64,000 nt of DNA from a gamma proteobacterium HIMB55 (lineage in GTDB: Bacteria > Pseudomonadota > Gammaproteobacteria > Pseudomonadales > Halieaceae), in NCBI GenBank assembly GCA_000227505.4, contig AGIF02000001.1, positions 2,004,035-2,068,034 of the forward strand. The letters are read 5' to 3'. The notes beneath the pieces were generated by a model that saw only the letters and a program-made list of their open reading frames with translations, searched no databases and was not told the origin of the DNA. The position numbers were made by a program, and so were the translations under genes. The first letter of the stretch is position 1; each line of letters starts with the position of its first letter. Shown in pieces: positions 47,351 to 47,437 of this stretch.

Positions 47351-47437
47351 TTAAATGGTTTCCAACGATCCAAGCGACTCAACGACCGTCTTGCTGGGTG
47401 CCGCGGGGGCTGCTTTGAGGGCTTTTATGATTCGCAT
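47351..47437 (-). CDS. 28-residue ORF upstream of glnK
   Basis: ATG (47437-47435) follows a strong AGGAG seven bases upstream and the frame runs 28 codons to TAA, 14 bases before the glnK ATG. The product begins [16 protein letters not shown] and ends SLGSLETI: basic and Ala/Pro-rich first, then acidic. I know no family for it. The ribosome-binding site is as good as that of glnK, and the spacing suits translational coupling or a leader peptide. No runs of a single amino acid suggest classical attenuation. Confidence 0.5.

Follow-up and report, generated by a model that had tools for sequence, protein, structure and literature searches.

Directly upstream of glnK-amtB in this bacterium lies an open reading frame (ORF) of 28 codons with a strong ribosome-binding site, which raises the question of whether it yields a useful small protein, acts on the translation of glnK, or is of no consequence. 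In the window, by which we mean the whole 64,000-nucleotide stretch of DNA that was analysed, sequence reading bore out the placement given in an earlier note: on the minus strand, the Shine-Dalgarno (SD) sequence AGGAG (47449–47445) stands seven bases before the ATG at 47437, with the spacer TCGAGTA, and the frame ends in a TAA (47353–47351) 14 bases before the glnK ATG at 47336. The sigma54-like site that the note had named was recovered as a GG-N10-GC element of sigma54 type beginning 83 bases before ATG 47437. The locus comprises the following features.

45747–46979, minus strand: amtB, ammonium transporter of the marine subtype TIGR03644 (NCBIfam)
46998–47336, minus strand: glnK, P-II family (best NCBIfam match 175.7 bits, cut-off 181)
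47345–47350, minus strand: AAGGAG of glnK, abutting the TAA of the 28-codon ORF (sequence reading)
47351–47437, minus strand: 28-codon leader ORF (sequence reading, peptide search, substitution counts, comparison of start and SD)
47445–47449, minus strand: SD AGGAG of the 28-codon ORF (sequence reading; comparison across carriers)
47505–47520, minus strand: sigma54-type -24/-12 element TTGGTGCGCCGCTCGC, GG-N10-GC (sequence reading; comparison of four carriers)
47607–47621, no strand assigned: NtrC-type palindrome GCACTATTGTGGTGC upstream of the promoter (sequence reading)
47684–47986, plus strand: divergent ubiK-like gene (61.7 bits, under the NCBIfam cut-off of 100)

We take TTGGTGCGCCGCTCGC to be of sigma54 type and GCACTATTGTGGTGC to be of NtrC type, going by the consensus sequences; the arms of the palindrome are the same in the four species that bear the ORF, and its centre differs in one of them, G047. 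Transcription is predicted, from the promoter spacing, to start near 47494.

Shuffling the 155-base leader 4000 times with dinucleotides preserved gave an ORF of at least 20 codons with ATG and AGGAG, ending near glnK, in 0.2% of the shuffled leaders, as against 6.4% in 4000 shuffles under a looser rule that admits any start codon with a 4-base SD, which indicates that the unusual feature is the strong start signal and not the open frame.

A peptide search of 140 family genomes (E up to 1) found the ORF before glnK in four of them, namely G000 (the window itself), G047, G002 and G001; the G047 peptide is 100% identical to that of the window, and those of G002 and G001 are identical at 71% of amino acids. 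Three further matches (E 0.25 to 0.84) lie at places other than glnK, and at the glnK locus of the other 136 genomes this search detected no 28-codon ORF. With a 179-base DNA query, the only strong matches were the same four genomes (E 2e-59 for G002 and ≤5e-62 for the other three), followed by a match of 23 bases (E 7e-4). A 20-base pattern across SD and ATG occurred in two contigs of genome_contigs, matching G047 and G001, and in none of viral_contigs.

A stretch of 183 bases (window 47314–47496), reaching from the vicinity of the predicted transcription start into glnK, is the same in G000 and G047, although dS between the two genomes is 1.21 in comM and 1.83 in amtB. Such identity could reflect either local recombination or strong nucleotide constraint; because a tree of AmtB groups G047 with G002 and G001 (98/89), we read it as probably local recombination. 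G002 and G001 are themselves near copies in the ORF region, so the 28-codon form amounts to about two independent haplotypes, and the evidence from this form alone is therefore thin. The SD, the ATG and the frame are intact in all four carriers (about two haplotypes); synonymous divergence between G000 and the other three runs from 0.76 to saturation in amtB, ubiK and comM, and from 0.45 to 0.58 in glnK. The glnK-amtB junction, too, is nearly identical in all four ORF-bearing species.

Substitutions within the ORF show no constraint on the peptide. Between G000 and G002, nonsynonymous changes in the ORF numbered 10.2 and synonymous ones 1.8 (dN/dS 2.07); between G000 and G001 dN/dS was 1.82, whereas glnK gave 0.02. 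The earlier note had proposed looking in relatives for a kept frame and start and for third-position bias of the changes; all four holders retain the frame and the start, but the codon bias is absent, the changes against G002 falling 3/6/3 over codon positions 1/2/3. Because the substitution pattern lacks codon bias and dN/dS is about 2, the note's suggestion of a small protein acting on GlnK, AmtB or NtrB goes unsupported. Protein-level conservation is ruled out by the same values set against the 0.02 of glnK, and the peptide appears, on this evolutionary evidence, to be dispensable. A functional micropeptide binding one of the three proteins is thus very unlikely in our estimation: it would suit the position in a nitrogen-regulated operon, and sP26 of Methanosarcina mazei, in the excerpts available on it, is a small protein studied together with GlnK, but dN/dS is about 2 between the two haplotypes, the conserved amino-acid sequence expected of a PII-binding small protein (archaeal sP26, for example) is absent, an NCBIfam profile search gave no match for the peptide, and most of the family (136 of 140 genomes) yielded no such ORF at the locus.

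What stands before glnK in relatives points to the origin of the ORF. We read 47 same-genus loci and left out two (L048 and L054) that lie upstream of a second glnK copy; in the remaining 45, the sequence between promoter and glnK holds torF, a porin gene (TIGR02001), in 20 cases, the 28-codon ORF in 4, a different ORF of 21 codons in 10, and neither in 11. One torF that was tested matched TIGR02001 at 167.6 bits, and the same 20 genomes carry a glnK-linked match to the family. In other genera, where 60 loci were read among 80 family genomes with a glnK match, a torF-like ORF, called by its C-terminal end and not by the family model, lies directly upstream of glnK in 49 (43 of which are in the torF tree); nine loci have no long ORF, and two follow an amtB-like end and probably represent a second glnK copy. 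In none of these 60 loci does a short ORF before glnK open with an ATG preceded by a five-base SD. At the order level, 195 genomes were searched and 29 other best-matching loci read, with the glnK start unrecognised in 7; an ATG ORF with a strong SD before glnK was found in 0 of the 22 readable loci, including two (L206 and L207) read at an odd position that may be another copy. Since torF is the usual upstream neighbour within the genus and outside it, torF-glnK-amtB is likely the ancestral gene order. In the AmtB tree (47 rows from 50 loci; G008, G019 and G033 gave no row), the four carriers of the ORF group together as a single clade (97/91) nested in a larger one that bears torF.

TIGR02001 matches also occur elsewhere in the genus. 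They were found in 51 of 57 same-genus genomes, many of which are incomplete assemblies: 20 adjoin glnK, 31 are not beside a detected glnK, and no genome has both. The 20 of these 31 unlinked genes that were placed in the torF tree form a deep separate clade (branch 2.2), and several have, by eye, a sigma54-like site of their own; that of G000 is at G000:C1:1964202-1964885, outside the window. It looks as though the unlinked paralog took the place of the operon's own torF. In one subclade (L016–L024, L028–L030, L042–L044 and L046) we also noticed by eye, within the last 45 bases before glnK and just ahead of its SD, a hairpin-like GCCGCCC..GGGCGGC, often followed by a T run and present with or without torF; many other genera, too, have GC-rich inverted repeats between torF and glnK. 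Attenuation or RNA processing is a possible role for this sequence.

From the promoter through the first 20 or so codons of the ORF, the window is colinear with the torF leader and start of the best-matching relatives, which defines two further features.

47373–47437, minus strand: part of the ORF aligning with the torF start, signal-peptide codons (alignments; far edge approximate)
47438–47496, minus strand: transcribed leader (aligns with that of torF in the best-matching relatives; the same in G000 and G047)

Head and leader together scored 58 against torF of L003 and 66 against that of L009, where the maxima of 60 shuffles were 32 and 37; over 11 relatives, however, the window leader scored only 23 to 36 against five, and the G002 leader fell within the shuffle range for six. 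Taken alone, the codons of the window ORF scored 52.0 against both L003 and L009, a value reached by none of 500 shuffles, and those of the G002 ORF were equalled by 0 (L003) and 2 (L009) of 500; over all 11 relatives, between 0 and 52 of 500 shuffles scored as high as the window ORF, and between 0 and 117 of 500 as high as that of G002. No other SD-preceded ORF head in the window (0 of 33, from ORFs of 80 codons or more) reached the L003 or L009 score. In comparisons with all of the family's 62 torF heads, the window ORF stood above 100 of 100 shuffles by mean and by maximum, and the G002 ORF was beaten by 3 of 100 (mean) and 11 of 100 (maximum). The tail of the ORF scored mostly within the shuffle range against the torF-glnK spacer, with fewer than 5% of shuffles as good for 6 of 11 relatives (window) and 1 of 11 (G002). 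In the four loci with the 28-codon ORF, an GTCCCAAG-like motif (47485–47492 in the window) lies close to where the operon transcript is predicted to begin; it also occurs in the torF leaders of the torF-bearing relatives L002, L003, L008 and L009.

The resemblance to TorF, a putative porin (TIGR02001), is therefore one of the start region, alignable at the DNA level in the best-matching relatives, whereas the mature porin of roughly 220 codons is absent from the window locus; no torF match was placed after about 20 codons, and the 28-codon ORF holds no full-length porin domain. Common ancestry of the ORF's start region with torF is backed by these alignments against the best-matching relatives and weakly against the others. 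Because the four carriers form one clade inside the torF-bearing clade, the 28-codon ORF is best read as the remnant of a lost torF, a resemblance that the earlier note had missed.

A remnant of this kind could be a neutral relic, a torF head that is still undecayed and whose translation, if any, is of no consequence. This is the main rival to the reading developed below, and we hold it to be possible, if on the unlikely side. It is made plausible by the 11 of 25 torF-less same-genus loci that have no short leader ORF, and the interior changes, which look unconstrained, agree with it; with about two independent haplotypes, the SD and ATG could also have survived by chance. It accounts less readily for an SD, ATG and frame intact in four of four carriers despite the synonymous divergence of amtB, ubiK and comM, and for the comparable ORF that each of the ten species read in another clade has.

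That second torF-less clade has its own 21-codon ORF before glnK in 10 of 10 species (nine in the AmtB tree, where they form one group with weaker support, 79/95, plus G033). In all ten, the ATG stands exactly 62 bases before glnK, is preceded by a GGAG SD, and opens a frame that overlaps the glnK start as ATGA; since glnK begins with ATGAA, the overlap follows from that sequence, and the start and the length are the informative part. Over codons 2–16, changes summed over pairs fell 330/309/334 on positions 1/2/3, with pS 0.489 and pN 0.477, compared with a pN of 0.026 for codons 2–19 of glnK; of the 45 interior columns just 5 are invariant, among them the C after the ATG, whereas the ATG itself is invariant. 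The amino acids of this ORF are thus free as well, which again argues against a micropeptide, though in a subgroup of five species (G003, G017, G032, G033 and G052) third-position changes are in mild excess (29/26/42, summed over pairs). Two possible proofs of coding were set aside: the openness of the frame is not significant (P 0.178), and the lack of insertions is uninformative, as the leaders themselves vary by just 1–2 bases in length (in a comparison where the promoter pattern missed 3 of 10). Because the heads of the 21-codon ORF resemble torF heads weakly, we do not claim descent from torF for it.

We lean, with confidence a little above even, towards a torF remnant that serves glnK. 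The former torF cistron of an NtrC/sigma54-type torF-glnK-amtB operon would have been lost in the ancestor of the carrier clade, leaving the torF leader, its ribosome-binding site, its start codon and about 20 codons, which now reach a stop beside the ribosome-binding site of glnK. The retained cistron would probably be translated when nitrogen limitation induces the operon, a ribosome terminating at TAA/AAGGAG would then initiate glnK, and the peptide would be a by-product of translation. The torF ancestry of the head, the nesting of the clade, the free peptide and the kept start signals are supported by computation, and from them we infer translation of the ORF, its coupling to glnK and a benefit. 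It is the conjunction of kept start signals, an interior free to vary and a frame ending at the SD or start of the next gene (the TAA lies 14–15 bases before glnK across the 28-codon loci) that suggests a leader delivering ribosomes; if the ORF acts at all, ribosome delivery to glnK is a likelier role than supplying a useful small protein. The earlier note's alternative of a leader peptide tuning glnK translation fits the kept start signals, the TAA abutting the glnK SD and the 21-codon counterpart. That the torF start was kept as a ribosome-loading leader and that the second clade independently reached a 21-codon equivalent with a start-stop overlap is a more tentative proposal, to which we give somewhat less than even credence.

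As to how coupling might work, a hidden glnK SD opened by leader translation received no support from folding prediction: the mean predicted unpaired fraction of the glnK SD was 0.48 with the actual and 0.45 with shuffled upstream sequence for the 28-codon form, and 0.26 and 0.24 for the 21-codon form, and glnK has a strong SD of its own. Because this accessibility is about that seen with shuffled upstream sequence, coupling through RNA unfolding is unsupported, and, with no hidden SD in the predicted folds, termination-reinitiation would be the likelier form. The leader could instead be of the attenuation type, with a peptide that senses an antibiotic or an amino acid, or it could work as RNA, the ORF being incidental to that element; hairpins are predicted in single leader sequences, and from close to the predicted start of transcription onward the leader of G047 is the same as that of G000. 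We judge this improbable, since the ORF has no run of regulatory codons and no terminator-like hairpin separates it from glnK, as attenuation of the trp/his type would have, its interior codons vary, and an Rfam search gave no match.

Termination-reinitiation has been proposed for ORF-11 of integrons, in which amino-acid changes have a slight effect and changes to the SD or ATG a large one (PMC8876359, in the excerpts available). Like the window ORF, ORF-11 and ORF-17 of attI1 are described there as very short ORFs that directly precede a gene and have a good GGAG and ATG; the start codon and SD are likewise kept in 4 of 4 loci with the 28-codon ORF and 10 of 10 with the 21-codon ORF. On the same partial text (PMC8876359), ORF-11 mainly helps cassettes without start signals of their own and takes its stop from the cassette. 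In the window, glnK has its own SD, and a lost gene of the operon is the apparent source of the ORF. Short ORFs that serve only to drive the next gene by delivering ribosomes have been proposed in a review (PMC12548453, in part), and engineered ORFs encoding nonsense peptides raise translation up to 20-fold (PMC13255528, in part). The latter carry an internal ribosome-binding site near their stop, beside the target ATG, and were engineered in E. coli (PMC13255528, same excerpts). The 21-codon form has this layout too, but the ORFs before glnK are natural and their effect on translation is a proposed one. A translated leader might also mainly shield the mRNA from Rho or RNases and not be coupled to glnK, which would likewise keep start and frame but not sequence, and polarity is described in the available part of PMC12548453; shielding does not, however, need the stop beside the SD or start of glnK that both ORF types have, and we consider it the least probable of the explanations weighed here.

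By position and description, torF-glnK-amtB resembles the NtrC-dependent operon nlmA-glnK-amtB of Herbaspirillum seropedicae, in which a membrane-associated protein of unknown function is encoded before glnK-amtB (PMC3023670, in the excerpts available); in the window, the first gene is reduced to 28 codons. In the literature searched, from which subscription papers were mostly absent, we found no short ORF described before glnK and nothing on the TorF family together with glnK.

If the ribosome-delivering reading is true, genes can be cut down to their start signals because a neighbour depends on their translation. It may also show where short bacterial ORFs with a strong start and an unconserved peptide come from, namely as vestiges kept for the translation of the next gene, which gene callers would miss and small-protein screens may count as proteins. 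The genus offers a natural comparison, its 45 loci having torF (20), a short ORF (14) or neither (11) before glnK.

The window also holds a second glnK copy (42598–42936; 74% identical), downstream of a catalase-peroxidase-like ORF and a terminator-like sequence; by eye, no short ORF with an SD precedes this copy. Beyond amtB lies an ORF of 755 amino acids, which is presumably catalase-peroxidase-like, and between the two stands a perfect tandem repeat of TGGTCAG in 10.6 copies (window 45545–45618).
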